This document shows positions 4,821 to 27,248 of a stretch of 64,000 nt of DNA, piece after piece; the first letter of the stretch is position 1; each line of letters starts with the position of its first letter. The translations under genes and the position numbers were made by a program. The notes below the pieces were generated by a model. It saw only the letters and a program-made list of their open reading frames with translations, made no database searches and was not told the origin of the DNA. Source of the stretch: Streptomyces kanamyceticus. Its GTDB lineage: Bacteria; Actinomycetota; Actinomycetes; Streptomycetales; Streptomycetaceae. The DNA lies in the NCBI RefSeq assembly GCF_008704495.1, contig NZ_CP023699.1, positions 3,410,001 through 3,474,000 of the forward strand, read 5' to 3'.

Positions 4821-5042
4821 GAACGGGCAGTCTGTCCTGCCCCCGAGGACGTCCGTCCGCCTCTGTGGCCAGCCGCGCGCACCCCGCACCATCGGGACGG
4901 GCGTCCGGACCGCGATCGGACCGATCCCGCGCGAGGAGCCGCGCCAGCTGCCGCCAGCCACCCGCCGACCCGTGCGGTGGCCGAACGGGCAGTGGCCTCT
5001 GCCCTCGGTGACGTCCGTCCGTCTCTACTGCCCGGCCGCGTC
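4821..5042. promoter_or_regulatory. Duplicated operator-like dyads in the SARP/CIS divergent intergenic region
   Basis: The 577-bp gap 4587-5163 separates the leftward regulator from the rightward CIS operon. It holds two copies of one composite element. GAACGGGCAG starts at 4821 and at 4983, exactly 162 bp apart. In each copy GGGCAG-N6-CTGCCC forms a perfect 6-bp dyad (4825-4842 and 4987-5004), and GACGTCCGTCC follows at 4848-4858 and 5010-5020 at the same distance. Conservation of the dyads, their spacing and the flanking motif while the rest diverges argues for protein-binding sites. The site nearer the sheath gene lies about 160-180 bp upstream of its start. I found no convincing -10/-35 pair in this gap. 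Confidence 0.6.
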
Positions 5043-5163
5043 CTGGGACATCGTCGTAGAAGACCGTACGACCAGCGGGAGCAGACCGCGGCCACGGGGA
5101 ACCGGCACACCCGGGCCGACGTGCCGGCGCAGGATCCCGTCATCGCGAGGAGAGAACGGAAAC

Positions 5164-6753
5164 ATGCCCAACTACCTGTCCCCCGGTGTCTACATCGAGG
5201 AAGTCGCCAGCGGCTCGCGACCCATCGAGGGAGTCGGTACCTCGGTGGCGGCCTTCGTCGGTCTCGCGCCGCACGGCCCGCTCAACGAGCCGACGCTGGT
5301 GACCAACTGGTCGCAGTACGTGGCCGCGTTCGGCGAGTTCACGGACGGGTACTACCTGGCGCACTCCGTCTACGGCTTCTTCAACAACGGCGGCTCCGCG
5401 GCCTACGTCGTGCGCGTCGGCGGCAGCAGCGCCGACGAGCCGCAGCAGCCCGCCACCGCCACCGCGCAGGCCCCCAAGGAGCTGACCGCGGGCACCCCCG
5501 TGGCGCTCGGCGGCTTCTCGGTCGCGGCGATCACCGCAGGGTCCGCCGCCGGTGGCGCGCTCACCGTCGAGGTGCAGGACAGCGAGGGCGAGAGCGCCGC
5601 CGACCGCTTCAAGCTGGTCGTCAAGGACGGCGAGAAGGTCGTCGAGAGCTTCGACGTCAGCTCCAAGAAGACGGCCCGCAACTACGTCGTCACGCAGGTC
5701 AAGCAGCGCTCCAAGACGATCGTCCTGGAAGAGGCCGCGGCCGGTGGCCAGGTGGCCAAGCCGGACGCGCAGTCCGTCACGCTCGCGCCGCCCGCCGCCG
5801 CGCCCGCCCCCGCCGTGCCCGCCTCGAACGGCGCGGCCGCCCCGGTCCAGACCGGCCAGTTCATCGGCGACTCCGCCGACCGCACCGGCTTCGGCGGCCT
5901 GGAGGCCCTCGACGAGATCAACATGGTCGCGGTGCCGGACCTGATGGCCGCCTACCAGCAGGGCCTGATCGACGAGGAGCAGGTCAAGGCCGTCCAGCTC
6001 GGCCTCATCTCGCACTGCGAGCTCATGGGCGACCGCATGGCGATCATCGACCCGCCGCCGAACCTCAACGCCCGCCAGGTCCGCCAGTGGCGCCAGGAGC
6101 TCGCGGGTTACGACTCGCGCTACGCCGCGCTCTACTACCCGTGGATCAAGTCCTTCGACCCGGCCAGCGGCCAGTCGGTGGTCGTGCCCCCGTCCGGCCA
6201 CATGGCCGGTGTGTGGGCGCGCAACGACGCCGAGCGCGGTGTGCACAAGGCTCCCGCCAACGAGATCGTGCGCGGCGCGATCGACCTGGAGCTGCAGATC
6301 ACCCGCGGTGAGCAGGACCTGCTCAACCCCATCGGCGTGAACTGCATCCGCGCCTTCCCCGGCCGCGGCATCCGCGTGTGGGGCGCGCGCACGATGGCCT
6401 CCGACCCGGCCTGGCGCTACCTGAACGTGCGCCGCTACTTCAACTACCTCGAAGAGTCGATCCTCATCGGCACCCAGTGGGTCGTGTTCGAGCCGAACGA
6501 CCACGCCCTGTGGGCGCGCATCCGCCGCAACGTGTCGGCGTTCCTGGTCAACGAGTGGCGCTCGGGCGCCCTGTTCGGCCAGCGCCCCGAGGACGCCTTC
6601 TACGTGAAGTGTGACGAGGAGACGAACCCGCCGGAGTCGGTCGACCTCGGCCGCGTCGTCTGCGAGATCGGCATCGCGCCGGTCAAGCCCGCCGAGTTCG
6701 TGGTGTTCCGCCTCGCGCAGTTCTCCGGCGGTGGCGGCGAGCTGGAGGAGTAG
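5164..6753 (+). CDS. Contractile injection system sheath protein
   Basis: 529 residues forming the contractile outer sheath. The N-terminus (LSPGVYIEEVASGSRPIEGV) is the tail-sheath signature, and the C-terminal domain has the conserved features FLVNEWRSGALFG, DEETNPPESVDLGR and APVKPAEFVVFRL found in phage, Afp/PVC-type and Streptomyces CIS sheaths. Residues about 85-255 are a more variable, Ala/Pro-rich insertion that would face outward. The ATG at 5164 has GGAGAG eight bases upstream; in-frame codons before it are not protein-like, so the longer reading frame from 4972 is not used. It is the first gene of the operon, followed after 86 bp by the tube. In S. coelicolor and S. venezuelae the homologous particles assemble in the cytoplasm. 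Confidence 0.95.
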   Translation: MPNYLSPGVYIEEVASGSRPIEGVGTSVAAFVGLAPHGPLNEPTLVTNWSQYVAAFGEFTDGYYLAHSVYGFFNNGGSAAYVVRVGGSSADEPQQPATATAQAPKELTAGTPVALGGFSVAAITAGSAAGGALTVEVQDSEGESAADRFKLVVKDGEKVVESFDVSSKKTARNYVVTQVKQRSKTIVLEEAAAGGQVAKPDAQSVTLAPPAAAPAPAVPASNGAAAPVQTGQFIGDSADRTGFGGLEALDEINMVAVPDLMAAYQQGLIDEEQVKAVQLGLISHCELMGDRMAIIDPPPNLNARQVRQWRQELAGYDSRYAALYYPWIKSFDPASGQSVVVPPSGHMAGVWARNDAERGVHKAPANEIVRGAIDLELQITRGEQDLLNPIGVNCIRAFPGRGIRVWGARTMASDPAWRYLNVRRYFNYLEESILIGTQWVVFEPNDHALWARIRRNVSAFLVNEWRSGALFGQRPEDAFYVKCDEETNPPESVDLGRVVCEIGIAPVKPAEFVVFRLAQFSGGGGELEE

Positions 6754-6839
6754 CCCGCCCCGCGCGCGGGCCGGGCAGGCCCGCGCGCTTCCGGTCCCCA
6801 CATACGTATCGGCAAGAACCGCAACAGGAGTGAACCCCC

Positions 6840-7283
6840 TTGTCCCTTCAGCCCGGTGATGCGCTCACTACCCACAACTTCGGCCTCCAGATCGACGGCG
6901 TCATGGTCGAGTACCTCCAGGAGGTCAGCGGCCTGTCGATGGAGCAGGAAGTCATCGAGTACCAGCAGGTCTCGGCGGACGGCAAGCCCGTCGTCAAGAA
7001 GATGCCCGGTGTCAAGAAGGCCGGTGAGTGCACCGTCACGCGCGGCATGACGCAGAGCCCCGTCTTCAGCGAGTGGATCAACAAGTCCATCGCCGGTGAC
7101 ATGGGTTCGGCGCGCAAGAACGCCACGATCATGATGATGGACTACCAGAACTCCCCGGTGAAGCGGTACAACCTCCGCAACGCCTGGTGCAGCAAGGTGG
7201 AGACCAGCGGGGTCAAGGCCGGCGACGCCGCCGCGCTGACCGAGCAGGTCACCATCGTCTTCGAAGAGCTGGTCATCGAGTAA
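6840..7283 (+). CDS. CIS inner tube protein (gp19-like), TTG start
   Basis: 147 residues of the phage-tail tube family (begins LQPGDALTTHNFGLQIDGVM; later SGLSMEQEVIEYQQVS, VTIVFEELVIE). Hexamers stack to form the hollow tube driven out when the sheath contracts. The start must be the TTG at 6840: AGGAG lies nine bases upstream (6826-6830), and the GTG between them (6830) runs into a stop in its own frame. The start choice is therefore well supported although the codon is unusual for an abundant structural protein. The stop codon overlaps the next start (TAATG), indicating translational coupling. Confidence 0.93.
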   Translation: MSLQPGDALTTHNFGLQIDGVMVEYLQEVSGLSMEQEVIEYQQVSADGKPVVKKMPGVKKAGECTVTRGMTQSPVFSEWINKSIAGDMGSARKNATIMMMDYQNSPVKRYNLRNAWCSKVETSGVKAGDAAALTEQVTIVFEELVIE

Positions 7284-7747
7284 TGCGGCGTGATGGCCCG
7301 GCGGCGGGCATGGCAGCGGGTACGGCGGGTCCGGCGGGACCCGCCGCGGCAGGCGCGGTAGCGGGGGCTCGTGAATCCCTGCGTACGGAGTTCGAGTTCG
7401 AGCTTCCGCGCGGGTACGTCGACGAGTCCGGCACCGTGCACCGCAACGGCGCGATGCGGCTCGCGACGGCGCGCGACGAACTCGTCCCGCTGCGGGACGT
7501 GCGCGTCCGCGAGAACCCCGCCTACCTCTCCGTCGTGCTGCTCGGCCGGGTCATCACCCGGCTCGGCACGCTCGGCTCCGTCCACGACGGCACGGTGGAG
7601 AACATGTTCGCCTCCGACCTCGCCTTCCTCCAGGACTTCTACCGGCAGATCAACGCGGAAGGACACACCCGCGCGGCCGTGGCCTGCCCGCACTGCTCGG
7701 AGTCCTTCGAGGTCGAGCTGGCCGGGAGCCGCCTGGGGGAATCGTGA
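7283..7747 (+). CDS. CIS tail-assembly-chaperone-like protein
   Basis: 154 residues from the ATG that overlaps the tube stop codon (TAATG). A short Ala/Gly-rich N-terminus is followed by a compact domain: FEFELPRGYVDESGTVHR, LVPLRDVRVRENPAYLSV, LLGRVITRLGTLG and a late CPHCSESFEVEL Cys-x2-Cys pair. Length, composition and position (between tube and the putative tape measure) match phage tail assembly chaperones such as Mu/P2-type TAC proteins, and similar genes recur in actinobacterial CIS loci. Its stop codon overlaps the next start (GTGA), and a run of five G just before the stop could allow a -1 shift into that gene. The chaperone role is inferred from synteny; the CIS association is solid. 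Confidence 0.7.
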   Translation: MRRDGPAAGMAAGTAGPAGPAAAGAVAGARESLRTEFEFELPRGYVDESGTVHRNGAMRLATARDELVPLRDVRVRENPAYLSVVLLGRVITRLGTLGSVHDGTVENMFASDLAFLQDFYRQINAEGHTRAAVACPHCSESFEVELAGSRLGES

Positions 7748-7905
7748 CGTACGCGGCCGACCGCATCGAGGAGGAAGTCGCGTACCTCGCCTATCACTTC
7801 CACTGGGGCCTGGACGACATCCTCGACCTCGAGCACGCCGACCGGCGCGGGTACGTGTCGCGGACGGCCTCGCTGGTGGAACAGGCCGAAGCAGCACGGC
7901 AGTGA
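7744..7905 (+). CDS. Small P2 GpE/DUF6760-like CIS protein (53 aa)
   Basis: A 53-residue gene with a GTG start overlapping the previous stop (GTGA). The product contains EEEVAYLAYHFHWGLDDIL and DLEHADRRGYV. The pattern 'x-hydrophobic-YHFHW...-hydrophobic-L-DLEHxxR' is that of P2 GpE (FHWPP...LLEWRHRA) and of the small proteins named DUF6760 in extracellular-CIS loci. In P2-type phages the equivalent gene is made partly by -1 frameshifting from the upstream chaperone gene, and here the two genes are also related by a -1 shift. Short length makes it easy to miss in automated annotation. It probably helps load tube subunits on the tape measure during assembly (inference). Confidence 0.75.
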   Translation: MTYAADRIEEEVAYLAYHFHWGLDDILDLEHADRRGYVSRTASLVEQAEAARQ

Positions 7906-7957
7906 CGGGACAACAGTGTGGTGTCGGTGGTCGGTGGCCGGTGAGTCGAGGTAAGTG

Positions 7958-10900
7958 ATGGGCTTGTTCAGGTGGGGCCGGGGGGATCGGTCCCGGGGGC
8001 AGCGGGATGCCGCGGTGACGCCGGGTGCGCCGGTCGAGCCGGAGGCGACCGCTCCGGACGCGGGTGCGGACGGGGCGGTTGCCGGTGCGCCCCGTGGCGG
8101 TGACGGTGGCTGGGCCACCGCGCCGCCGGTCCAGCGGGTCCTCGCCGCACCGCGCCCGGTCTCCGAGCCGGGCTTCGCCTCGATGCTCGCCACCCACCAG
8201 AACCCGTCCTTCGGCGGCCAGTTGGGCCACGCCGTACGCTCATCGGCCCCCGGCGGCCTGCTCCGCGACGTCCTCACACCCGTCGTGGGCACGCCGGGCA
8301 GCCTCGACCTGCCGTCGCTGCGGTTGCCGGTGCGGCAGGAGGGTGGGGCCGCGGAGGCGGGTGACGGGGGCTCGGGTACGCCCGCCGGTCCCTTCGGCGC
8401 TTCTGCTGCGTCTTCCGCGTCTTCCGCGTCGGCTGCCGCTTCTGGGGGCGGCGGGCAGGCGGCGCCTCGGGGGCGTGGGTCTGCCGCGGCGCGCAAGGGG
8501 CCGGGATCCACGCCCACGCCGGTGGCGCGGGCGGCTTCGGCTGGAGGCACGTCTTCTCCGGCGGCGGGTGCGGCTTCGGCTGCCGCGTCTTCGGGTGGGG
8601 CCGCTGCTCCGGGTGGCGCTGCTGCTCCGGTGCAGCGGGCCGCTTCGGGGGCGAGCGGGGGTTCGGCACCGGGTGGGGCTTCTGGACCGGCCGTGACTCC
8701 CGGTCCGTCCGGGTCCGCCGATCGGTCCGCCGCTTCCGGTTCGTCCAAGAGGCCTGGTTCGTCCGGGACCTCGGGGCTGCCCGCGGCTCCAGGTGCGTCT
8801 GAGACGTCCCAGCGGCCCCTGGCTTCCGACCCGTCCAGGAGTTCCGGTCCAGTCTCGGCTTCCGGTCCTGCCCAGGGGTCCGGTCCGGCCGGGGTCCCGG
8901 GGTTGCCTGCGACTCCTGGCCCATCCGCGTCTTCCCAGCGGCCCTCGGCTTCCGACCCGTCCAAGAGCTCCGCTCCGGCCTCGGCCTCCGGTCCTGCCAA
9001 GGGGCCCAGCCCGTCCGGGACCTCGGGACAGCCCGTGGCCGCTGGCCCGTCCGGGACGCCCCAGCGGCCGTCCAGGAGCTCCGGTCCCGGCTCGGCCGCC
9101 AGTCCCGCCAACAGGCCCGGTCCGTCCGGAACCTCGGGACAGCCCGTGGCTCCTGGCCCTTCCGGGACGTCCCACCGGCCCTTGACTTCCGACCCCTCCA
9201 GGAGCTCCGCTACGGCCAAGGGGCCCGGCCCGTCCGGGACTTCGGGGCCGACCGGGGCCGCTGGCTCGTCTGCGGCATCCGACCCGACCACCGTTGCCAG
9301 GTCGGCCAGGCCCGGGGGCCCGTCCAGCACCTCCCACTCGTCCAGGACTCCTGGTCCTTCCGGGGCTTCGGGACCGGTCGTGCCTCTCGGCCCGGCCGCG
9401 ACCAGCGCGCCGTCCCCCACTTCCGGCCCGTCCGTGACGCCGGGCTCGCCCACGGCCCCGGGTCCGTCCACGGCTCCTGGGCCCGGTGGGGCTTCCCGTA
9501 CGCCCGGTACCTCGGGCCCGTCCGGGGCTTCCGGACCGGCCAAGACCCCTGGTTCGTCCGGGTCTTCGGGTCCCGCCCGGACTCCCGGTGCTTCCAGGAC
9601 TTCGGGTCCGTCCGGGGCCCCCGGCCCGTCCGCACCGCGTACGCCCGTTGCCTCCGGCCCGTCCGGAACTCCCGGTCCTTCCGGGGCTCCCGCCACACCC
9701 AGGTCACGGGCCGCGTCGGGCCCGCAGACCTCAGCCCCGTCCCCGGCCACCCCGTCGGCCGCCTCCGCCTCCGGCCCCGCCGTGCAGCGCGCCGCCGCCT
9801 CCCGCAGGGACGACAAGTCGCGCACCGCGGCGTCGCCGGACTCCGGTGCACGCGCTCCCGGCCGTACGCCCGGTGCCTCCGGTCCGTCCGGAACTCCCGG
9901 TCCTTCCGGGGCTCCTGCCACATCCGGGCCGCGGGCCTCGTCGGGGCCGCAGGCCTCAGCCCCGTCCGCTTCCGGCCCCGCCGTGCAGCGGCGCACCGCG
10001 CCTCTCGCCGGTGACCGGTCCCTCTCCGTGCCCGGCGCGGACGACGCCCCCACGGGCGACGGCCCCGGGCCCCGGCTGACTCCGATGTCGGACGCGGACG
10101 TCCAGGCCCTGAGCCCGGCCGTTCCCGTCGTGCAGCGGATGCCCGTGAAGCGGTCCCCTCTGGTCTCGGCGACGCCGCCCGCGGAGCCTCAGCGGCGGCT
10201 GTTCCCCGTCGGGTCGGTGCCCACGGTGCCCACGGTGCCCGCTGCCGGGCCCACCGGGAGCTCCGCCCCCGCGAAGGCCACCACAGACTCGGCCCCCTCC
10301 GGGCCGACCGAAGTCCCCGGGCCGGTTCCCCCGGCCGGTCCGGGGACGCAGGCCCGGACCGCTCGCACGTCCGCGAGCGCGTCCGAGGCGGCGGGTCCCG
10401 TCGCTGCACGGGCGGGTACTACCCCCGTCCCGTCCGTGCAGCGTCGGGCCCCGGTACGCCGGATACAGCGCAAGCCCGACGGCGGCAGCGGCCCCTCCGC
10501 CGCGCCGAAGGGACGTCCTCGTACGGGACTCGGCTCGCCGCTCGGCGAGGTGCCCACCAGCGGCCCCGCGCCAGCGCCAGCACCCACGCCCGCGCCCGCG
10601 ACCGCCCCCGGCAGCAAGGGAAGCTCCCGCCGGAGCCCGATCGGCGCGCCCGTCACGCCTCCGGAAGCCACCACGCCCGCCGCGCCTGCCATGCCTGCCG
10701 CCCCCGCCACCCCCGTACAGAAGGCCGAAGCACCCGCGCCCACAACCCCGCCGGTGCCCCCAGCCGCGCACGCGCCCAAGCCTGTGACTACGCCGACGCC
10801 CTCACCCGCACCCACACCGGCAGAGACACCCGCGCCCAAGTCCCTCCCTCGCCCTCTTCCCCTCCCCGTCGTCCCCGTCAACCGCCGGATCGCCCCCGGG

Positions 10901-11521
10901 AGTTACCGGCCCGGCGGCCTCGGCGGGCCGCGCCCCCTGCCGCTGAGTTCCTCCCGGGGACTCGCGGTCCAGACGGCGCCGGACGACTCCGCCCCCGGCC
11001 CCTCCGTACCGCCGAAGGGCCCCGCACCCACGCCCGCCCCAGCTCCGCTCCAGCGATCCTCCGCCGCGAGCGGCGGCCCCGCCGACGCCTTCCACGCCGC
11101 GGCCCCCGTCGTCGTACCGCTGGCCAAGCACTCCGCCCAGGCTCCCGCGCGCGCCGCCGTGCCCACCCCGCCGGTACCGGCCCCCGTGCGCCCCACCGTC
11201 CAGCGGCGCGCGGCGGCTCCCACCCCGGCCCCCGCTCCTCCGCCGCCCCCGGCACCCGCACCCGCACCCGCCCCGGCGCCCCGGCGCCCCGCACCCGTCC
11301 AGCGCACCGACGCCGCCCCCAAGACAGCGGCACCGGCACCCGCACCGGCAGCGGCACCCGCCGCCGCGTCCGAGTCCGAGCCCGCCGCCTCGGGGCCGTC
11401 CGCGCCCGCCGAGATCGACGAGCTCGCCCGGCGGCTCGTGGCGCCCCTGTCCCGGCTGCTCCGGGCCGAGTTGCGCGGTGACCGCGAGCGGCTCGGGCGG
11501 CTGCGTGACCACGGCCGCTGA
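7958..11521 (+). CDS. Giant Pro/Ser/Ala/Gly-rich CIS protein with PVQR motifs, in the tape-measure position
   Basis: 1187 residues from the ATG at 7958 (GAGG six bases upstream; an adjacent GTG at 7955 adds one residue). A short N-terminal segment (FASMLATHQNPSFGGQLGHA) is followed by about 1000 residues of low complexity: degenerate GPSGTSGQPVAPGPSGT-like blocks (about 8.7-9.7 kb) and then Ala/Pro stretches. At least eight xVQR motifs (PPVQRV, APVQRA, PAVQRR, PSVQRR, PTVQRR and others) punctuate it. The last 35 residues form an amphipathic helix (EIDELARRLVAPLSRLLRAE). It lies directly after the chaperone-like pair, where myophages encode the tape measure, yet it lacks the helical coiled-coil look of tape measures. 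It may be a disordered ruler, a tube cargo, or both. Function not established. Confidence 0.7.
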   Translation: MGLFRWGRGDRSRGQRDAAVTPGAPVEPEATAPDAGADGAVAGAPRGGDGGWATAPPVQRVLAAPRPVSEPGFASMLATHQNPSFGGQLGHAVRSSAPGGLLRDVLTPVVGTPGSLDLPSLRLPVRQEGGAAEAGDGGSGTPAGPFGASAASSASSASAAASGGGGQAAPRGRGSAAARKGPGSTPTPVARAASAGGTSSPAAGAASAAASSGGAAAPGGAAAPVQRAASGASGGSAPGGASGPAVTPGPSGSADRSAASGSSKRPGSSGTSGLPAAPGASETSQRPLASDPSRSSGPVSASGPAQGSGPAGVPGLPATPGPSASSQRPSASDPSKSSAPASASGPAKGPSPSGTSGQPVAAGPSGTPQRPSRSSGPGSAASPANRPGPSGTSGQPVAPGPSGTSHRPLTSDPSRSSATAKGPGPSGTSGPTGAAGSSAASDPTTVARSARPGGPSSTSHSSRTPGPSGASGPVVPLGPAATSAPSPTSGPSVTPGSPTAPGPSTAPGPGGASRTPGTSGPSGASGPAKTPGSSGSSGPARTPGASRTSGPSGAPGPSAPRTPVASGPSGTPGPSGAPATPRSRAASGPQTSAPSPATPSAASASGPAVQRAAASRRDDKSRTAASPDSGARAPGRTPGASGPSGTPGPSGAPATSGPRASSGPQASAPSASGPAVQRRTAPLAGDRSLSVPGADDAPTGDGPGPRLTPMSDADVQALSPAVPVVQRMPVKRSPLVSATPPAEPQRRLFPVGSVPTVPTVPAAGPTGSSAPAKATTDSAPSGPTEVPGPVPPAGPGTQARTARTSASASEAAGPVAARAGTTPVPSVQRRAPVRRIQRKPDGGSGPSAAPKGRPRTGLGSPLGEVPTSGPAPAPAPTPAPATAPGSKGSSRRSPIGAPVTPPEATTPAAPAMPAAPATPVQKAEAPAPTTPPVPPAAHAPKPVTTPTPSPAPTPAETPAPKSLPRPLPLPVVPVNRRIAPGSYRPGGLGGPRPLPLSSSRGLAVQTAPDDSAPGPSVPPKGPAPTPAPAPLQRSSAASGGPADAFHAAAPVVVPLAKHSAQAPARAAVPTPPVPAPVRPTVQRRAAAPTPAPAPPPPPAPAPAPAPAPRRPAPVQRTDAAPKTAAPAPAPAAAPAAASESEPAASGPSAPAEIDELARRLVAPLSRLLRAELRGDRERLGRLRDHGR

Positions 11522-11586
11522 CCCGTCCGCCCGCCGCCTGCGACCATCCGGTCTCCCCTCCGTCCGCCACAGGAAAGAACAGCCCG

Positions 11587-12024
11587 ATGCCCTCGACCCT
11601 GGACCCCGGTTCCACCGTCTTCTTCAAACTGACCATCGACGGTCAGGACCTCGGCCTGTTCAACGGGTGTGACGGCCTGTCCTCCCAGGTGGAGGTGGAG
11701 CAGCGGCAGGAGGGCGGCAACAACGGGTTCGTCTGGCAGCTGCCGACCCGCGTGACGTTCTCGACGATCCGCCTGACCCGGCCGCTGACCGCCGACACCT
11801 CCCGCGTCGCCGCCTGGATCTCGTCCATCGCGACGGGGATCTCGCGGCCCACCGCGCAGATCGCCGCGCTGCGCGCGGACGGCTCGATCGTCGCCCAGTG
11901 GGGGCTCGTCGAGGTGCTCCCGGTGAGCTGGCAGGGGCCGAGCCTGAGCCCGGACAGTCCGAGCGTGGCGACCGAGACGCTGGAGATCGCCCACCACGGC
12001 TTCACCGACGCGGGAGGTGCCTGA
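11587..12024 (+). CDS. Second CIS tube-family protein (gp19-like, probable tube initiator)
   Basis: 145 residues related to the tube at 6840: TVFFKLTIDGQDLGLFNGCDGLSSQVEVEQ, WQLPTRVTFSTIRLTRPL and a closing ETLEIAHHGF correspond to the gp19/tube fold. CIS loci commonly carry a main tube protein and one or more divergent copies that form the first ring between hub and tube. The gene sits just before the LysM hub gene, which fits a tube-initiator role. GGAAAG precedes the ATG by nine bases. It is separated from the large Pro-rich gene by 65 bp and from the next gene by one base. Confidence 0.85.
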   Translation: MPSTLDPGSTVFFKLTIDGQDLGLFNGCDGLSSQVEVEQRQEGGNNGFVWQLPTRVTFSTIRLTRPLTADTSRVAAWISSIATGISRPTAQIAALRADGSIVAQWGLVEVLPVSWQGPSLSPDSPSVATETLEIAHHGFTDAGGA

Positions 12025-12025
12025 G

Positions 12026-12775
12026 ATGGCCGCGCCGTCCGGCGGCAAGGCGGGCGCGAGCCTGGTCCGCGCCGCGCTCGCCATCCACCAGCCGCCCACC
12101 GATCTCGGCGGATCGATGGGCGGGCGCATCGGTGAGGTGGAGTTCCAGTTCAATCCGACGCAGCTCCAGATGGGCCGCACCGCGGAGTGGCGCACGCAGC
12201 CCGCGGTCGCCTACACGCGGGGCGCGCCGCCGAAGTTCACCGGCGCCCAGCCCGCCACGCTGCAGCTCGAGGTGTTCCTCGACTCCTCGGGCACGCCGAA
12301 CGGCGGCAAGGTGCAGAAGCAGGTGGAGCTGTTGCTCTCCTGCTGCGAGGTGACGCCGCAGAGCGTGTCGACCAAGCGTCCTTCGCCGCCGTGGGTGCGG
12401 TTCTCGTGGGGGTCGTTCAACACGGTGCAGTTCGTCGCGTACGTGACCAGCGTCAGCGCGACGTACACCCTGTTCAACCCGACCGGCGAGCCGCTGCGCG
12501 CGACCTGTTCGCTGTCGCTGACCGAGGTGGCCATGCCCACCAAGGGGCAGAACCCGACGTCGGGCGCGCTGTCCGCGCGGCGCGTGCACCGCACCGTCGC
12601 CGGTGACTCGCTGGCCTCGCTGGCCTGGCGCGAGTACGGCGACGCGACGCGCTGGCGGCTGATCGCCGAGGCCAACGAGATCGACGACCCGATGCGGCTG
12701 CGGCCGGGCACGGAACTGCTCCTGCCCGCCGCCGACGAGCCCCGCATCGCCCCCGTTCACCCGGAGTCCGCATGA
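12026..12775 (+). CDS. CIS hub/adaptor protein with C-terminal LysM domain
   Basis: 249 residues. The N-terminal two thirds (GRIGEVEFQFNPTQLQMGR, FTGAQPATLQLEVFLDS, WGSFNTVQFVAYVTSVSATYTLFNPTGEPLRA) match the phage gp53/T4-like hub family seen in Afp7/PVC7-type proteins. Residues about 190-238 form a LysM motif (HRTVAGDSLASLAWREYGD, W-x-LIAEANEIDDP, LRPGTELLLP). In related injection systems this protein joins tube initiator and spike inside the baseplate. The ATG at 12026 has GGAGG eight bases upstream and is preferred over a GTG nine bases earlier that overlaps the preceding gene. Its stop overlaps the spike start (ATGA). Confidence 0.87.
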   Translation: MAAPSGGKAGASLVRAALAIHQPPTDLGGSMGGRIGEVEFQFNPTQLQMGRTAEWRTQPAVAYTRGAPPKFTGAQPATLQLEVFLDSSGTPNGGKVQKQVELLLSCCEVTPQSVSTKRPSPPWVRFSWGSFNTVQFVAYVTSVSATYTLFNPTGEPLRATCSLSLTEVAMPTKGQNPTSGALSARRVHRTVAGDSLASLAWREYGDATRWRLIAEANEIDDPMRLRPGTELLLPAADEPRIAPVHPESA

Positions 12776-14691
12776 GCGAGAAGACGTACACGAGTGTCCT
12801 GCACGCCGAGATCGGCGGCGCCCGGCTGCCCGACAAGCTGGCCGTGCTGCTCGTGGAGGGCTGGGTGGACTCCAGCGTGAACGTGCCGTCCGCCTTCCAG
12901 CTGACCTTCGTCGACAGCGGCGGCGACATCCTGCAGAAGTTCCGGCAGATCAAGGTGGGCGCGGAGGCGGTGCTCTGCCCGTTCACCGACGGCGTGCGCG
13001 GCAAGCCCATGCTGACCGGCGAGGTCACCGCCCTTGAGGTGGACTCGGACGCGAGCGGCAAGACCCTCGTGGTGCGCGGCTACGACCCGGGGCACCGCCT
13101 CCTTCGCAACCGCCGGGTGCAGGGCTATCCGAACATGACGGCCTCCGACATCGTGCGCCGCGTCGCAGGTCTCAACCGCCTCAAGATCGGCAAGATCGAA
13201 TCCACTCCGACCGTGTACGAGCTGGCGACCCAGCCCAACATCACGGACTGGGACTTCCTGTCCCGCCTCGCCCAGGAGAACGACAGCAGGCTCTCCTTCG
13301 ACGAGGACGGCAAGCTGAACTTCGCGGGCCTCAAGCCCGCCGCGGGGGCGCCCGCCGACACCACTCCGTCCGCGCAGAGCCCGTACGTCCTGGAGTTCGG
13401 GCACAACGCGCTGCACAGCCGGGTCGCGGTGACCGCGTCGGGGCAGGTCTCCACCGCGGGTGCGCGCGGCTGGGACGTGCGGTCCAAGCGCGCCCTTTCC
13501 TCGACGTCCCCGGCCACGGTCAGCAAGGACATCGACGCCGACATCACCCCGGCGCAGCTGTCCCAGCCGTTCGGCAAGTCCGAACTCACCAGCACGCAGA
13601 CGCCGTACACCACCCAGGCGCAGGTGCGGCACGCCGCCAAGTCGCTCGCCGACGACGTGTCGGGCTCCTTCGCGGAGCTGGAGGTCGCGGTCACCGGCAA
13701 CCCCGACCTGCAGCCGGGCAGGCCGGTGGCGCTCAAGGGCGCGGGCTTCCCCTTCGAGGGGAAGTACACGGCGACCGGCGTGCGCCACGTCTTCGAGTCC
13801 GGGCGTCCCTTCACCACCTGGCTGACCGTGTCGGGGCGGCAGTTCCGTTCGCTGTACGGGCTCGCCTCGGGCGGCGCGGACGCCGCGCCGCCGATGCCGG
13901 GCGTGGCCATGGCGCTGGTCAGCAACGCCAAGGACCCGATGAAGATGAACCGGGTCAAGCTGCGCTTCCCGTGGCTCTCGGACACCTACGAGAGCGACTG
14001 GTGCCGGATCGCCCAGCTGGGCGGCGTACGCGGTGGCGGGCTGATGATGCCGGAGGTGGGCGACGAGGTGCTCGTGGCCTTCGACCGGGGCTCTCTCGAA
14101 CATCCCTATGTGCTCGCCGGGCTGTACAACGGCAGGGACAAGCCGACGCCGAACACGGACGGTCTGCAGCCGATCGACCCGACGAGCGGCCGGGTCAACT
14201 GGCGCTCCATCTCCTCGCGCAGCGGCCACACCATGGAGCTCGTCGACGCCAAGTCCCGCATGAAGAGCGGCATCAGGCTGCAGACGGGCAACGGCCGCCT
14301 CACCGTCCACATGGACGAGACGAAGACCAGCGTGACCATCAAGAGCGACGGTTCCGTCTCCATCACCGGCACCCGGAACGTCAGCATCAAGGCGGGCGGC
14401 AACCTGTCGCTGACCGCGGGCGGTTCGCTGACGATGAGCGCGGGCGGGGCCGTCGACATCAAGGCGGGCGCCAAGTTCGGCGTGATGGCGGGCGCCGCCG
14501 CGGACATCAACGCGACCGGCGCCATCAGCCTCAAGTCGGCGGGCGCGGTGGCCGTGAACTCGGTCGGCGCGGTCTCCGTCACGGCGGTCGGCGCGGTGGC
14601 CGTCTCGGCGGGCGCGGCGGCGGCGATCAGCTCGCCCGCCACGGTCGCGCTGAGCGCACCGGCCGTCCTGCGCAACGGCATTCCCTTCTAG
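12772..14691 (+). CDS. CIS spike protein, VgrG/gp27-gp5-like
   Basis: 639 residues. The N-terminal region (to about 350) is a gp27/late-control-D hub domain (LLRNRRVQGYPNMTASDIVR, ITDWDFLSRLAQENDSRL). A gp5 OB-fold follows (about 380-460: GVAMALVSNAKDPMKMNRVKL, WCRIAQLGG, GDEVLVAFDRGSLEHPYVL). The C-terminus is a Gly/Ala/Val repetitive needle (GGNLSLTAGGSLTMSAGGA, GAVSVTAVGAVAVSAG) expected to fold as a triple beta-helix. It ends RNGIPF without an added enzymatic domain, so no effector fusion is visible. The start overlaps the hub gene stop. It caps the tube and leads penetration. Confidence 0.93.
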   Translation: MSEKTYTSVLHAEIGGARLPDKLAVLLVEGWVDSSVNVPSAFQLTFVDSGGDILQKFRQIKVGAEAVLCPFTDGVRGKPMLTGEVTALEVDSDASGKTLVVRGYDPGHRLLRNRRVQGYPNMTASDIVRRVAGLNRLKIGKIESTPTVYELATQPNITDWDFLSRLAQENDSRLSFDEDGKLNFAGLKPAAGAPADTTPSAQSPYVLEFGHNALHSRVAVTASGQVSTAGARGWDVRSKRALSSTSPATVSKDIDADITPAQLSQPFGKSELTSTQTPYTTQAQVRHAAKSLADDVSGSFAELEVAVTGNPDLQPGRPVALKGAGFPFEGKYTATGVRHVFESGRPFTTWLTVSGRQFRSLYGLASGGADAAPPMPGVAMALVSNAKDPMKMNRVKLRFPWLSDTYESDWCRIAQLGGVRGGGLMMPEVGDEVLVAFDRGSLEHPYVLAGLYNGRDKPTPNTDGLQPIDPTSGRVNWRSISSRSGHTMELVDAKSRMKSGIRLQTGNGRLTVHMDETKTSVTIKSDGSVSITGTRNVSIKAGGNLSLTAGGSLTMSAGGAVDIKAGAKFGVMAGAAADINATGAISLKSAGAVAVNSVGAVSVTAVGAVAVSAGAAAAISSPATVALSAPAVLRNGIPF

Positions 14692-14748
14692 ACGGTCTGG
14701 GCGGCTCGAGGAAATTGAGGGACATGCGACGCAAGGGGGTCACCGGAC

Positions 14749-15162
14749 ATGAGTGAACAGTTCGTCGGCGCGGGCTGGACCTTCCCGCTGCGTACCGACG
14801 CGGGCGGCGGCATCGCGCTGGCCCGCCGCGAACGCGAGATCGAGGAGTCGATCCGGCTGGTGCTCGCCACCGCGCCGGGCGAGCGGCCGATGCGGCCCGA
14901 ATTCGGCTGCGCCGTCCACGACATGGTCTTCGCGCCGGTCAACGAGGCGACGGCGGGCCGGATCAGGTACGAGGTGCGGTCCTCGCTGGACCGCTGGGAG
15001 CCACGGATCGAGGTCATCGACGTCGAGGTCAGCCCCGCCCCCGACGACCCGTCCGTCCTGTTCATCGACGTGAGCTACAGCGTGCGCGGCACCAACAACC
15101 CGCGCAGCCTCGTCTTCCCCTTCTACGTGATCCCTTCCACGGAAACCGAAAGCGGAGTCTGA
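14749..15162 (+). CDS. CIS baseplate wedge protein, gp25/GpW family
   Basis: 137 residues with the gp25 core: ALARREREIEESIRLVLATAP, GERPMRPEFGCAVHDMVFAPVN, then YEVRSSLDRWEPRIEVIDVEV. The E-P-R triplet-like motif 'RWEPRIEV' is typical of gp25 of T4, T6SS TssE and eCIS. It initiates sheath polymerisation at the baseplate. GGGG lies nine bases upstream of the ATG. A 57-bp gap separates it from the spike gene; six bases separate it from the baseplate J gene. Confidence 0.93.
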   Translation: MSEQFVGAGWTFPLRTDAGGGIALARREREIEESIRLVLATAPGERPMRPEFGCAVHDMVFAPVNEATAGRIRYEVRSSLDRWEPRIEVIDVEVSPAPDDPSVLFIDVSYSVRGTNNPRSLVFPFYVIPSTETESGV

Positions 15163-15168
15163 AGTCCG

Positions 15169-17160
15169 ATGGCCCTGCCCGCACCCCACCTCGACGACCG
15201 GCGCTTCCAGCAGTTCGTCGACGACGCCAAGCGCTACATTCAGCAGCGCTGCCCGGAGTGGACCGACCACAACGTCTCCGACCCGGGCGTCACCCTCATC
15301 GAGGCGGTCGCGCACATGGCCGACCAGGTCGTCTACCGCCTCAACCGGGTGCCGGAGAAGAACCACCTGGCCTTCCTCGACCTGCTCGGCGTCACCCTCT
15401 TCCCGCCCGCCGCGGCCCGCGCCGACGTCACCTTCTGGCTCTCCGCGCCGCAGACCGAGCCGGTGGTCCTGCCCGCGGGTACGGAGGTGGCCACCAGCCG
15501 CACCGAGACCGAGGAGGCGGTGGCCTTCGCGACCGAGGGCGACCTGACGGTGGTGCCCTGCGAGCTGGAGTCGGTCCTTCGCCAGGAGTCGGGCGGCACC
15601 CCGCAGGACTGCGGGCAGGACGTCTTCGGCGGCCGCGACGTGGCCGCCTTCTCGGCCTCGCCGCAGCCCGGCGACACCCTGCTGTTCGGGCTCAGCTCCC
15701 CGGTGCCGCGCTGCGCCGCCGTGCTCCAGCTCGACAGCCGCGTCGACGGCGTCGGCGTCGACCCGCGCCAGCCGCCCCTGGTGTGGGAGGCGTGGACCGC
15801 GGACGGCTGGACGGAGTGCGAGGTGGAGGAGGACTCCACCGGTGGCCTCAACCGGCCGGGCGACGTGGTCCTGCACATTCCCGCGGGGCACACCGTCTCG
15901 CGGATCGGCAGACAGGACGCGGGCTGGCTGCGCTGCCGGGTGACCGAGGCCGTGCAGGGCCAGCCGTTCTACAGCGCCTCGCCGACCGTGCGCGCCGCGT
16001 CCGCGTTCACCATCGGCGGTACGACGACGGTGGCGCACGCCGACGTGGTGCGCGACGAATCGCTCGGCGACTCCTCCGGCGTACCGGGACAGCGCCTCCG
16101 CCTGGCCCAGGCGCCGGTCGTCGCCGACCGGCCGCCGCTGGTCCTGGAGGTCTCCGAGCACTCCGCGGACGACTCCGGAGACGGCGACAACGACGGGGCG
16201 GGCTGGCACCAGTGGCAGGTCGTCTCCGACTTCGCCTCATCGGGCCCGCTGGACCCGCACGTGACGCTCGACGCGGCGACCGGCGAGATCGCCTTCGGGC
16301 CCGCGGTACGCGAACCGGACGGCTCCCTGCGGCAGTTCGGCGCGGTGCCCGCCAAGGGCGCGGCGATCCGCGCGACCCGCTACCGCACCGGCGGCGGCCG
16401 CGCGGGCAACGTGGCGCGCGGCGCCATCCAGGTGCTCCGCAGCTCCATCCCGTACGTCGCCCGGGTGGAGAACCGCGAGGCGGCGCGCGGCGGGGTGGAC
16501 GGCGAGACCGTGCAGGAGGCCAAGGTGCGCGCGCCGATCGCGCTGCGCGCCCAGGAGCGCGCGGTGACCGCGCGCGACTACGAGGAGCTCGCGCGGCGCG
16601 CGGCGCCCGAGACGGCCCGCATCCACTGTCTGGCCGCGGACACCGCGGAGGCGGGCGAGAACGCGGTCCGGGTCCTCGTCGTCCCGCAGGCCGTGTCCGA
16701 CCGGGGCGGGCGGCTCCGCTTCGAGCAGCTGGTGCCGGGCGAGGAACTCCTCTCGCGCGTCACCCAGTTCCTCGACGACCGGCGCCCGATCGGCACCCGG
16801 CTCGCGGTCGGGCCGCCGTTCTACCAGGGCGTCACGGTCGTCGCCACGCTGCACTCCTTCCGCGCCGCCCAGTCGGAGAAGGTGCGCACCGAGGCGCTCG
16901 ACGCGCTGTACGCCTATCTGGACCCGCTGACCGGCGGCGCGCACGGCGACGGCTGGCCGTTCGGGCGTCCGCTGCGCGCCGGTGAGATCTTCGCCGCGCT
17001 GCAGCGCGTGCCCGGCGTCGAGCTGGTCGACGAGGTGCTCCTGCACCCCGCCGACCCGCTGACCGGGCGGCGCGGCGACGCCACCGACCGCATCGATCTC
17101 GCGCCGTCCGCGCTCCTCTTCCCCTTCGACCACCGCGTCCGCGTCATCGAGGCCCGATGA
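15169..17160 (+). CDS. CIS baseplate J-like protein
   Basis: 663 residues, the 'putative baseplate assembly protein' family (gpJ / T4 gp6-like). It begins with the characteristic helical segment RCPEWTDHNVSDPGVTLIEA and AHMADQVVYRLNRVPEKNHL, then LGVTLFPPAAARADVTFWL. The C-terminal third carries the baseplate J core (GRAGNVARGAIQVL, NREAARGGVDGETVQEAK, RAQERAVTARDYEELA). It builds the ring of wedges around the hub together with gp25 and tail protein I. Its stop overlaps the next start (ATGA). Confidence 0.93.
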   Translation: MALPAPHLDDRRFQQFVDDAKRYIQQRCPEWTDHNVSDPGVTLIEAVAHMADQVVYRLNRVPEKNHLAFLDLLGVTLFPPAAARADVTFWLSAPQTEPVVLPAGTEVATSRTETEEAVAFATEGDLTVVPCELESVLRQESGGTPQDCGQDVFGGRDVAAFSASPQPGDTLLFGLSSPVPRCAAVLQLDSRVDGVGVDPRQPPLVWEAWTADGWTECEVEEDSTGGLNRPGDVVLHIPAGHTVSRIGRQDAGWLRCRVTEAVQGQPFYSASPTVRAASAFTIGGTTTVAHADVVRDESLGDSSGVPGQRLRLAQAPVVADRPPLVLEVSEHSADDSGDGDNDGAGWHQWQVVSDFASSGPLDPHVTLDAATGEIAFGPAVREPDGSLRQFGAVPAKGAAIRATRYRTGGGRAGNVARGAIQVLRSSIPYVARVENREAARGGVDGETVQEAKVRAPIALRAQERAVTARDYEELARRAAPETARIHCLAADTAEAGENAVRVLVVPQAVSDRGGRLRFEQLVPGEELLSRVTQFLDDRRPIGTRLAVGPPFYQGVTVVATLHSFRAAQSEKVRTEALDALYAYLDPLTGGAHGDGWPFGRPLRAGEIFAALQRVPGVELVDEVLLHPADPLTGRRGDATDRIDLAPSALLFPFDHRVRVIEAR

Positions 17161-17894
17161 GCGGGCAGAACGGCGACGGGGCAGGCGCCGCGTCCATGTC
17201 CAAGGGCGCGGGGTCGTCCTCCGCGTACATGTCCAAGGGCTCCCCGTCCGCCGGGCAGGGGACGGGGAACGGCAGCGGACCCGGCGGCGGGCACGGCGCC
17301 GGGCACGTGAGCGTGTCGCACCGGGGCAGCGTCGACTCGCTCGGCTCCGCGCATCCGCTCGACGAGCAGCTCCCCGCCGTCTTCGCCGACGACGACTTCG
17401 CGCTGCGCTTCGTCTCCGGTCTCGACGTCGTGCTCGCCCCCGTCTTCACCGTCCTGGACTGTCTGGAGGCGTACTTCATGCCCTCCCTGGCACCCGAGGA
17501 CTTCCTCGAGTGGCTGACCGACTGGGTCGGCACGGAGCTCGACGGCACGGAGCCGCTGGTGCTCCGCCGGCACGCGGTGGCCTCCGCGGTCGCCCTGCAC
17601 CGGGTGCGCGGCACCCGGCGCGGTCTGGCAGCCGCCGTCGAACTCGCCTTCGGCGTACGGCCCGAGATCACCGAGAGCGGCGGCGCCACCTGGTCCGCGC
17701 GGCCGCTCGGCTCCTTTCCCGGCAACCCGCGCCCCGGCCTGCACATCGCTCTGCCGGTCCGCGACCCGGCGTCGGTGGACGGGCACCGCCTGCACGCCGT
17801 CGTCGCCGCGGCCCGCCCCGCCCACCTCCCCTTCACGGCCGAGGTGACCACCACACCGTCCCTGAGGGAACCCACCCATGACCGAGAAGCCTGA
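17157..17894 (+). CDS. CIS tail protein I (wedge) family protein
   Basis: 245 residues. After a Gly/Ser-rich leader of about 60 residues the conserved domain starts: LDEQLPAVFADDDFALRFVSG, LDCLEAYFMPSLAPEDFLEWL, then HRVRGTRRGLAAAVELAFGV. This is the phage tail protein I (P2 gpI) pattern, which completes the baseplate wedge. It overlaps baseplate J by four bases and the next gene by 17. No tail-fibre gene follows, unlike phages and typical extracellular injection systems. Confidence 0.9.
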   Translation: MSGQNGDGAGAASMSKGAGSSSAYMSKGSPSAGQGTGNGSGPGGGHGAGHVSVSHRGSVDSLGSAHPLDEQLPAVFADDDFALRFVSGLDVVLAPVFTVLDCLEAYFMPSLAPEDFLEWLTDWVGTELDGTEPLVLRRHAVASAVALHRVRGTRRGLAAAVELAFGVRPEITESGGATWSARPLGSFPGNPRPGLHIALPVRDPASVDGHRLHAVVAAARPAHLPFTAEVTTTPSLREPTHDREA

Positions 17895-19137
17895 GATGTC
17901 AGACTCCCCTTCCAGTACCGCTCCCTGCCCCGAGTGCGGCACCCCGGCCCGCAAGCACGGCCAGTCCTTCTGCGACTCGTGCGGCGCCTTCCTGCGCTGG
18001 GACACCCCGGCCGCCCCCGCGGGCACAGGACCCGGCGCGTCCCCCGCCGACGACGCCGTGCCCGACCTGCCGCCGGGCCCGGCGCGGGACCACGCGCGCG
18101 AGGGCTCCGTGCCCGGTGCGGCGGCGACGACCGTGCCGCTGCCGACGACCCCGCCCGGCGAGCCCGCCTACCAGCCCGCGCAGCCCCCGCACCCGCCGCA
18201 GGCCCCGCAGCCCCCGCAGCAGCAGGCCGGGGCCCACCCCGACGGCGGTTACGCCCGTCAGGACGACCAGCGGCCGTCCGCCGGGCACTCCGACACCGCG
18301 ATCAGGTCGCTGCTCGTGCCGGTGCCCGACTCCGAGCCCGTCGGCCCGCCCGAGGCGCCCGGCGGCGTGCTGCCCGGCAGGCCCGAGGCCGCCCGCCCGC
18401 GGGTGCGCCAGGCCGCCGTGCCCGCCGAGCCCGAGTCGGGCATGCCGTGCCCCGGCTGCGGGGTGCCCAACGCGCCGCGCAGGCACTTCTGCCGCAGCTG
18501 CGCGACGCCGCTGAAGGACCACTCCGGCCCGGCCGCCGAAGGCCCGTACGCCGGACAGCGGCCGCGCCTGAACCGCGACCGCACCCGGTGGATCTACCGC
18601 GCCGTGGTGGCCGTCATCGTCGTCGGCGTGGTGGTCGGCGGGATCTTCGGCGGGCCGCCCGCCGCGCGCGCCGTGCAGGACCACTTCGCCAAGCGGGTCC
18701 CGGTCCGCCCGACGGACTTCAGCGCCTCGCACTCCTCGCCCAAGCACGGCCCCCAGGTGGCCTTCGACGGCTACTCCAACACCTGGTGGGGTACGGGCTA
18801 TTCGGGCGACTCGGCGGGCCAGTGGCTGCAGGCCGACTTCGGCCAGCCCACCGACCTGCTCAACCTGCTGATCACGCCGGGCACGTCGCCGCGCACCGCG
18901 CAGGCCGCCGAGCAGGCGCGGCCCATGGAGTTCGACCTCGTGGTGACGGACTCGGCGGGCAAGGAGCGCACCTTCAAGCGCCGGATCAACGACGGCGGCG
19001 CGCAGAAGGTCGACGTGCGGGTGCGCGACGCGGTCTCCGTCCGCCTGGTGGTCCGCTCCGCGTACGGCGCGGGGGACAAGCGTCAGCTGGCCATCGCCGA
19101 GCTGGAGTACTTCGGCAGGTCGACCGGCGGTCAGTGA
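17878..19137 (+). CDS. CIS-operon membrane protein: two zinc ribbons, one TM helix, discoidin-like C-terminal domain (CisA-like)
   Basis: 419 residues. Residues about 17-40 hold a zinc ribbon (CPECGTP...FCDSCGAFL); about 45-190 are Pro/Ala-rich and probably disordered; a second ribbon (CPGCGVP...FCRSCATPL) lies near 190-215. One hydrophobic helix (about 239-262, AVVAVIVVGVVVGGIFGG) follows. The outer part (about 280-415) has the discoidin/F5-8C pattern AFDGYSNTWWGTG, QWLQADFG, LAIAELEYFGR. Cytoplasmic ribbons plus an external sugar- or lipid-binding domain suit a tether between the particle and the envelope. Streptomyces CIS have such a bitopic membrane partner, CisA; equivalence here is inference from operon and layout. 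The ATG at 17878 has GAGGG nine bases upstream; another ATG lies at 17896. Confidence 0.75.
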   Translation: MTEKPEMSDSPSSTAPCPECGTPARKHGQSFCDSCGAFLRWDTPAAPAGTGPGASPADDAVPDLPPGPARDHAREGSVPGAAATTVPLPTTPPGEPAYQPAQPPHPPQAPQPPQQQAGAHPDGGYARQDDQRPSAGHSDTAIRSLLVPVPDSEPVGPPEAPGGVLPGRPEAARPRVRQAAVPAEPESGMPCPGCGVPNAPRRHFCRSCATPLKDHSGPAAEGPYAGQRPRLNRDRTRWIYRAVVAVIVVGVVVGGIFGGPPAARAVQDHFAKRVPVRPTDFSASHSSPKHGPQVAFDGYSNTWWGTGYSGDSAGQWLQADFGQPTDLLNLLITPGTSPRTAQAAEQARPMEFDLVVTDSAGKERTFKRRINDGGAQKVDVRVRDAVSVRLVVRSAYGAGDKRQLAIAELEYFGRSTGGQ

Positions 19138-19189: not shown

Positions 19190-19250
19190 CATCCGGCCTT
19201 GCCATCCGGGCCGCCCCGCCTTGTCAGTGGTGCGTGCCATGATCGCTCGT

Positions 19251-26299: not shown

Positions 26300-26351
26300 C
26301 TCTCGCTAGGACGGGGGGTCGATTTGTGGTGATTTATGGGACTCTCATCGT

Positions 26352-27248
26352 ATGACGCCGATCACCGAGGTGGAGGGGCGGCGGCTCGCGCTCAGCAATC
26401 TGGAGAAGGTGCTGTACCCGGCGGGCGGCTTCACCAAGGGCGAGATGCTGCACTACTACGCCAGCACGGCGGGCGCCCTCCTCGCGCACCTCCACAACCG
26501 GCCCGTCTCGTTCCTGCGCTACCCGGACGGACCCGAAGGCCAGCGCTTCTTCGCCAAGAACGTGCCCCCCGGCACCCCCTCCTGGGTGCGCACCGCCGAC
26601 GTGCCGCGCTCCGACGGCACCGCGCGCCAGATCCTCGTACAGGACCTGGCCACGCTGATGTGGGCGGCCAATCTGGTCACCGAGTTCCACACCCCGCAAT
26701 GGCAGGCGGACGCCCCGGGGCAGGCCGACCGCCTGGTCCTGGACCTGGACCCCGGCGCCCCCGCCACCATCGTGGAGTGCTGCGGGGCCGCGCTCTGGCT
26801 GCGGGAGCGGCTGATGGCCGACGGCTTCCACGTGTACGCGAAGACCTCGGGCAGCAAGGGCCTGCACCTGCTCGTACCGCTGGAGCCGACCCCCGCCGAA
26901 CGGGTCACGGCGTACGCGAAGGAGCTGGCCGTCGAGGCCGAGCGGGAGCTGCCCGCGCTCGTCGTGCACCGGATGACGCGGAGCCTGCGCCCCGGCAAGG
27001 TCTTCGTCGACTTCAGCCAGAACGCCGCCGCGAAGACGACCGCCACGCCCTACACCCTGCGGGCCCGCCCCGAGCCGACCGTCTCCACCCCCGTGACCTG
27101 GGCGGAGATCGAGCAGTGCGACGAGCGGGACCAGCTGGTCTTCCGCGCGGACGACATCGCGCCCCGCCTGCGCAGGTACGGGGACCTGCTCGGCCCGCTC
27201 ATCAACCTCAACCGGGCCAGACCGCTGCCCGCGCGGTCGCCGCGATGA
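26352..27248 (+). CDS. ligD: LigD polymerase/primase domain protein
   Basis: 298 residues, a stand-alone polymerase domain (archaeo-eukaryotic primase fold) of the LigD type. Motifs: LSNLEKVLYPAGGFTKGEML, RYPDGPEGQRFFAKNVP, the metal-binding DLDPG (LVLDLDPGAPA), KTSGSKGLHLLVPL and KVFVDFSQN with the third acidic residue. It fills gaps with ribonucleotides during end joining. It is split from its ligase partner: the stop overlaps the ligase start (ATGA). The start ATG follows TCTCATcgt, consistent with a short or absent leader. Confidence 0.95.
   Translation: MTPITEVEGRRLALSNLEKVLYPAGGFTKGEMLHYYASTAGALLAHLHNRPVSFLRYPDGPEGQRFFAKNVPPGTPSWVRTADVPRSDGTARQILVQDLATLMWAANLVTEFHTPQWQADAPGQADRLVLDLDPGAPATIVECCGAALWLRERLMADGFHVYAKTSGSKGLHLLVPLEPTPAERVTAYAKELAVEAERELPALVVHRMTRSLRPGKVFVDFSQNAAAKTTATPYTLRARPEPTVSTPVTWAEIEQCDERDQLVFRADDIAPRLRRYGDLLGPLINLNRARPLPARSPR

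Follow-up and report, generated by a model that had tools for sequence, protein, structure and literature searches.

The window analysed here is a 64,000-nucleotide stretch of the Streptomyces kanamyceticus chromosome (contig NZ_CP023699.1; G000:C1:3410001-3474000 in our numbering, in which G marks genomes and L loci), lying within a 10.1-Mb single-contig genome, and one run of contractile injection system (CIS) genes on the + strand spans its positions 4972-19137, as judged by Pfam, PHROGs and NCBIfam. The order is sheath, tube, tail-assembly chaperone, DUF6760 protein, a long open reading frame (ORF) that we call X, the tube initiator Cis1b, Cis7 (CIS_tube plus LysM), hub-spike, gp25, Baseplate_J, Tail_P2_I and a gene at the CisA position, and we assign the cluster to the actinobacterial CIS type IId from the Streptomyces literature. 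X, the subject of this report, encodes 1187 residues between the chaperone/DUF6760 pair and Cis1b, the slot that a first-pass annotation of the window had recognised as that of the tape measure, and this slot is now seen across a whole family. The gene order given in that annotation agrees with Pfam and PHROGs, except that the tube initiator and the LysM protein also sit between X and the hub. Coordinates are collected in Table 1.

X matches no Pfam family at E 0.05 and no NCBIfam model, and loci for comparison were gathered via neighbouring DNA rather than via X. They comprise 23 named loci (22 from Streptomyces and one from Kibdelosporangium, seven of them without Cis1b) together with genome stretches found with Cis1b, which has matches in 28 of 396 genomes of the phylum and 102 of 199 of the genus; with the S. 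coelicolor Cis1b as query at E 1e-70, matches occur in 92 of 392 genomes of the genus. Only part of the Cis1b-matching genomes was taken, picked by eye to spread identity. Among 126 pieces containing Cis1b, 112 also have the chaperone or DUF6760, and the 14 with neither are cut contigs or other CIS types. The slot is larger than 1 kb in 103 of the 112, the other nine having no X-sized gap, and in 95 of these 103 a single ORF that ends in a conserved tail covers more than 80% of the gap. The 95 include L060, which is probably mis-framed, most of its Val-Gln-Arg (VQR) motifs lying in another frame; without L032 (N runs) and L028 and L030 (duplicates of L010 and L011) there are 92 orthologs, while the VQR enrichment counts below use all 95 and the length and spacing counts use 94. 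Eight slots fail the single-ORF test: the two X ends are in different frames in L038, L076 (with an N run), L130 and L123; no tail is seen in L087 and L089; and L101 and L112 have ORFs with the tail at their end, for which tblastn gave no match. In L123 (G740:C1:4675900-4683900) there are two copies of the tail signature, RERxG, some 1.2 kb from each other and in different frames, which could reflect duplication of the X end, an insertion or frame changes. In L038, L130 and L060 the VQR-rich part and the RERxG tail are out of frame with each other, owing to errors in sequencing or to genuine frame changes in this repeat-rich gene.

X is a real gene. Both conserved ends are in one frame in 84 of the 92 orthologs, despite 9-58 alignment gaps per close pair, and linker substitutions fall at codon position 3 more often than at 1, and at 1 more often than at 2, in 10 of 10 close pairs (which are not all independent). 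That the ORF could instead be a by-product of GC-rich DNA, encoding no protein, might be argued from the GC content at its third codon positions (GC3, 0.81), which is below that of neighbouring genes, from the very high value at second positions (GC2, 0.81) and from the empty Pfam and NCBIfam searches; retention of the frame and both ends, together with the codon-position pattern, refutes this in practice and leaves it barely credible. Lengths range from 571 to 1393 aa (n=94), and the window copy has an alternative in-frame GTG start one codon upstream, at 7955. We note also that in seven of nine divergent clusters without X (L103, L105, L106, L108, L110, L111 and L113) a low-complexity, Arg-rich putative ORF of 230-358 aa without VQR directly follows Cis1b, which might be a displaced counterpart of X; in L107, another X-less cluster, Cis7 directly follows Cis1b.

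The composition of the window copy is 20% P, 19% A, 14% S and 14% G, and Pro, Ala, Gly, Ser and Thr make up a median of 67% of the whole protein among orthologs. An AlphaFold2 model built with 35 sequences has a mean predicted local distance difference test score (pLDDT) of 45.6, with 947 of 1187 residues below 50, and its only long confident helix covers residues 1150-1183, so that the earlier description of a disordered Pro/Ser/Ala-rich protein with a short C-terminal helix is upheld. Within the tail R39, R41 and G43 are invariant in 45 of 45 aligned sequences, some of them from beyond the genus and beyond the class, and a tail regular expression matches 92 of 92 orthologs, partly by selection because the tail match chose the frame. 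At the other end, taking predicted starts, the mean net charge of residues 6-21 is +2.5 over the 92 orthologs compared with +0.5 inside X, and an aromatic residue is found in the first eight positions of 84% of them compared with 6% of internal stretches. According to published descriptions, the loading signals of extracellular CIS (eCIS) are disordered, hydrophilic and of slight positive charge, with aromatics in the first eight residues (PMC11297309; here and below, papers are cited for the parts of their text that were available), and, published score aside, the X N-terminus appears to resemble them.

Database searches with whole X and with residues 1120-1187 gave no relatives, probably as the candidate list was crowded with low-complexity words; with the last 40 residues there are three relatives at E <= 10 (best 7.5e-3), two of them named 'hypothetical protein'. 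A phrog_819 match (8.5e-5, residues 459-816) was set aside as falling in the low-complexity linker, and in the PDB the C-tail matches proteins that are unrelated or of designed sequence, the best at E 0.0011 in a profile search.

The first-pass annotation had counted at least eight xVQR motifs, and there are exactly eight VQR in the window copy, compared with a mean of 0.11 and a maximum of two in 500 residue shuffles; the broader pattern [VIL]QR occurs 10 times against 0.20 expected (maximum three in 500 shuffles). Over the 95 orthologs [VIL]QR occurs 1192 times against 32 expected, and VQR is the top tripeptide by z-score, runs of the letter X aside. Spacing is irregular (mean 75, coefficient of variation 0.80, n = 1086), which rules out a regular spacing matched to tube rings, and the count increases with X length (Spearman 0.52, n = 94). 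In six further CIS proteins of the window [VIL]QR is found once in total, with 1.5 expected, and 26 proteins with an eCIS_core (DUF4157) domain, from genomes with these clusters, have 81, with 8.4 expected and often just before the domain; these come from 30 loci fetched from a longer match list, of which four with no recognisable HExxH were dropped (long ORFs with 0 or 1 VQR). Six long eCIS_core ORFs with none or one rule out VQR as a property of all eCIS cargo, and the counts across protein sets thus point to a motif common to one CIS cargo class, neither all cargo nor the structural proteins tested.

The link between X and this cargo extends to the domain itself. PF13699 (cut-off 22) is found in three divergent tail-bearing slot proteins, with 82.5 bits in L100, 61.4 in L090 and 53.3 in L114, and in a fourth slot ORF, that of L191 (978 aa), whose tail has diverged. 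A Pfam scan did not find it in X of the window or in L119, L096, L101 or L112, and in eight slot proteins scanned there is no Pfam domain besides eCIS_core. X and eCIS_core cargo have VQR motifs in common, and four divergent slot proteins carry the domain, but we do not class X as an eCIS_core protein because PF13699 is absent from it. Sle2, a small S. lividans protein with DUF4157, was found to co-elute with SlpT2, the homologue of Cis1b in that species (PMC13277306), which suggests that slot protein and cargo core may meet at the tube initiator.

The Cis1b proteins of G600 and G631 are 100% identical over 137 residues to PDB 9gtp chain a. This chain is the tube initiator of the S. coelicolor CIS (CISSc); an X of 1378 aa in G631 (L119) and of 1357 aa in G600 (L120) lies between DUF6760 and Cis1b. 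SCO4248 is a SlpT2 homologue and SCO4253 the sheath (PMC10286715), and by position the S. coelicolor X would be SCO4249, with SLIV_17140 as the likely tag in S. lividans. A typical tape measure is stated by Casu et al. to be absent from Streptomyces CIS clusters (PMC10066040); the eLife CISSc paper repeats this, while all particles analysed there are of the same length, with 61 sheath layers and 268 nm (PMC12237407), and S. lividans is likewise reported to have no tape-measure gene (PMC10286715). No description of an X protein was found in the open-access literature as far as its text was available, subscription papers, bioRxiv and supplements being outside the scope of the search, and the sole paper naming SCO4249 applies the tag to PhoP. 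This looks like a tag error, PhoP being SCO4230.

The order of the locus matches that of P2-type phages, including the slot of P2 gpT. Together with the tail-bearing ORF in 95 of 103 slots, the invariant tail residues R/R/G, the confident helix, the lack of a plug-sized gene between Cis1b and Cis7 in the six X-bearing clusters inspected, the presence of eCIS_core in slot proteins, the co-elution of Sle2 with SlpT2 and the shared VQR motif, this leads us to consider it an evenly balanced proposition that X corresponds in function to the tape measure and the spike plug, as a protein of the tube lumen anchored by its C-terminal helix. A place in the lumen is suggested by the net positive charge of 76 of the 92 orthologs, set against the lumen surfaces of other CIS tubes, which are reported to be negative (PMC8894135, PMC8894136). 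By a composition heuristic there is no other long helical ORF nearby. In such a scheme the RERxG helix, probably as a trimer, would seat on the tube initiator/hub, where the C-termini of tape measures and the Cis6/Alg6 plug sit; the chaperones would keep the long disordered chain soluble while the tube grows around it; the chain, Arg-rich for the most part, would then lie in the lumen; and the VQR motifs, which the first-pass annotation had proposed as processing sites, could be docking or processing sites common to X and eCIS_core cargo. The N-terminal end might in addition signal to the cap where growth should stop, and so set length.

Comparison with known systems shows both likenesses and differences. 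With the tape measures of phages and bacteriocins X shares the slot after sheath, tube and tail-assembly chaperones and before the tube initiator/hub, a long chain and a C-terminal helix, but the diffocin tape measure CD1366 is largely a coiled-coil trimer (PMC10996793), and X, one helix of about 34 residues apart, is predicted to be disordered; because the AlphaFold2 model has no mostly alpha-helical coiled-coil body, we do not file X in the tape-measure family. Tme of S. davawensis is also long, CIS-linked and connected with eCIS_core; by its description it is about 70% disordered and is encoded immediately upstream of the baseplate genes, and it differs from X in carrying eCIS_core, transmembrane helices and a nuclease (PMC11126660). 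Sle1 of S. lividans, likewise long, CIS-linked and connected with eCIS_core, is described as a coiled coil encoded upstream of the sheath (PMC13277306), X having neither that position nor a long N-terminal coiled coil; in G631 an ORF of 956 aa with a 404-residue helical run, likened to Sle1 by position and lying beside a DUF4157 ORF, is present besides X. The Cis6/Alg6 spike plug has, like X, a C-terminal helix and a spike-proximal operon position; compared by description, Alg6 is small and X long (PMC8894135, PMC8894136). Alg6 is reported to be essential for AlgoCIS assembly (PMC8894135), and inspection of six X-bearing clusters shows Cis1b followed by Cis7, without a gene the size of a plug to separate the two, so X may replace the plug.

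The first-pass annotation had offered two roles, a new kind of ruler or a protein carried in the tube, and the link to eCIS_core, along with an N-terminus resembling a loading signal, favours the second. As a strict ruler X would set tube length one to one by the length of its chain, like a phage tape measure but disordered: the C-terminal helix would be fixed at the tube initiator, the Arg-dotted chain stretched by confinement in the lumen, the N-terminal end would halt polymerisation, and repeat-driven length changes would retune particle length between species. The position of X and its chaperones speaks for this, as do the equal lengths of CISSc particles without a recognised tape-measure gene (PMC12237407), the lack of apparent structural defects in S. 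lividans particles without Sle1/2 (PMC13277306) and the dispensability of sco4256-4258, whose deletion has no effect on assembly (PMC10066040). A composition heuristic applied to the region between 20 kb to the left of the window and 26 kb within it showed no other helical tape measure, such as the first-pass annotation had thought might lie to the left; the longest helix-like run there is 83 residues, and the heuristic does detect the 404-residue run of G631. At the reported in-vitro particle length of ~230 nm (PMC10066040) the X proteins of 1378 and 1357 aa correspond to 1.67-1.69 A per residue, close to the 1.70 that we obtain by division for diffocin (1388 A for modelled residues 1-817; PMC10996793), but this ratio rests on the X of two genomes with an identical Cis1b rather than on S. 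coelicolor's own X, and it becomes 1.94-1.97 A if the full 268 nm is used. A disordered chain would moreover be soft and a poor ruler, and X length behaves as in an unconstrained random walk, or free indel drift, with a mean z2 of 1.69 over 24 sister pairs (1010 and 1198 aa, or 1150 and 1357 aa, for example) where 1 is expected without constraint and less with it (an expectation that is reasoned, not simulated), in keeping with the wide range of the family. This drift, the soft chain, the mostly empty look of the lumen in mutant particles and the silence of mass spectrometry on X, to which we return below, make a strict ruler rather unlikely, and we keep it as a minority reading.

We regard it as unlikely, too, that X is simply cargo or a cargo carrier with no part in assembly, its N-terminus acting as a loading signal while VQR tethers or releases eCIS_core effectors, or X itself being delivered. 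The apparent fit of the N-terminus to published loading-signal features (PMC11297309), the VQR motif common to X and eCIS_core proteins, the eCIS_core domain of divergent slot proteins and the very long linkers of many eCIS effectors (PMC8213781) all agree with such a role, yet the eight slot proteins scanned contain no other Pfam domain, the C-terminus, which is the activity end of effectors, is a short conserved helix in X, and the window cluster has X but, by the composition heuristic, no Sle1-like helical ORF. It seems quite improbable that X has its role away from the completed particle, serving as a scaffold for assembly or as a membrane or cytoplasmic partner that is later lost or degraded, since its conserved adjacency to the tube initiator and its conserved C-terminal helix suggest a structural contact. 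Several observations nevertheless weigh against X as a lumen-bound counterpart of tape measure and plug. The available structure section on CISSc has nine modelled proteins and no mention of a plug or of X (PMC12237407); on deletion of sco4256-4258, although X should still be made, the lumen looks mostly empty in tomograms (about 85% of 73; PMC10066040); and the unknown-function proteins detected by mass spectrometry are named as SCO4242, SCO4256 and SCO4251, the main text, as available, being without SCO4249 (PMC10020575). Sixteen of the 92 orthologs have no net positive charge, a PDB search yields no convincing solved relative of the C-tail, and the six eCIS_core ORFs with 0 or 1 VQR, which are 2.1-2.4 thousand residues long, lie in stretches with no chaperone/DUF6760 match. 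Trimerisation of X and its binding partner are deduced rather than seen.

Table 1. Features of X and of the CIS locus (window positions unless a genome coordinate is given)
Feature	Position	Strand	Basis
Sheath (Cis2)	4972..6753	+	PF04984 2.6e-28, PF17482 4.4e-21; 5' boundary provisional
Inner tube (Cis1a)	6840..7283	+	PF06841 3.7e-34
Tail-assembly chaperone, 154 aa, C-terminal CPxC pair	7283..7747	+	Codon-position GC; phrog_508
DUF6760 small protein, 53 aa	7744..7905	+	PF20546 29.9 bits, cut-off 27
X, predicted disordered, Pro/Ala/Ser/Gly-rich, 1187 aa, tape-measure slot	7958..11521	+	ORF, neighbours, AlphaFold2
X N-terminus, basic with aromatic residues	7958..8020	+	Charge and aromatic counts, 92 orthologs
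X conserved N-terminal segment, residues 46-130, holds first VQR	8093..8347	+	tblastn match (E < 1), 84/92 orthologs in the tail's frame
Eight VQR, first bases 8129, 8630, 9782, 9983, 10130, 10436, 11198, 11297	8129..11305	+	Motif count
Tandem 111/126-bp repeats in X linker	8745..9270	+	Tandem Repeats Finder (TRF)
X C-terminal helix, residues 1150-1183, RERxG signature	11405..11506	+	pLDDT ~90
Tube initiator (Cis1b), second gp19-type tube protein	11587..12024	+	PF06841 2e-30; E 1.4e-72 to PDB 9gtp chain a
CIS_tube + LysM (Cis7)	12017..12775	+	PF19266 2.6e-25
VgrG-like hub-spike (Cis8)	12772..14691	+	PF04717, PF05954
gp25-like (Cis9)	14749..15162	+	PF04965
Baseplate_J (Cis11)	15169..17160	+	PF04865
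Tail_P2_I (Cis12)	17157..17894	+	PF09684
Cap, left flank	G000:C1:3404651-3405181		PF14065

Of the genes around X, the chaperone would by position be the counterpart of SCO4251, and phrog_508 ('tail assembly chaperone') is matched by 19 of 19 members of its alignment (A3), with a best value of 2.5e-8 and only 0.0035 for the window copy; a viral_contigs scan gave no relatives. The DUF6760 protein, for which a PDB search found no convincing relative, would by position be a second chaperone. A 195-aa ORF at 7371-7958 was rejected as a gene, since codon-position GC places it in the wrong frame over these two. The CisA-position gene (17878-19137) encodes zinc ribbons and an NADase-type glycan-binding domain (NF047619 2e-19). 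The left flank also encodes an AAA+ ATPase with a winged-helix domain, a LuxR-type regulator and a ricin-lectin protein, which resembles the ricin-domain effectors Sco4257/4258 (PMC10066040). Close to the CIS genes, and again left of the window, a block of low GC3 (L141:6334-12728) with genes for a HATPase protein, an Mrr/DEAD-helicase restriction protein and a cytosine-5 DNA methylase is probably a restriction/defence island. A second CIS cluster in the genome (G000:C1:9688618-9695070) contains two sheath genes and a separate cap gene; neither a chaperone/DUF6760 match nor, therefore, an X-type slot was detected in it. Further right in the window, long overlapping ORFs on both strands (2140 aa on +, 1402 aa on -) with no Pfam match occupy 19224-24356, and an end-joining repair locus, with Ku (-) beside ORFs for a LigD primase-polymerase and an ATP-dependent DNA ligase (+), lies at 25250-28138.

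X is thus a conserved candidate for the missing tape-measure role in Streptomyces CIS, undiscussed in the literature that was found. If it does fill that role, a disordered protein of the tube lumen would change what tape-measure annotation looks for, because family models and coiled-coil criteria both miss such a protein, and the VQR motif common to X and eCIS_core proteins offers a concrete handle on the recognition or processing of eCIS cargo.

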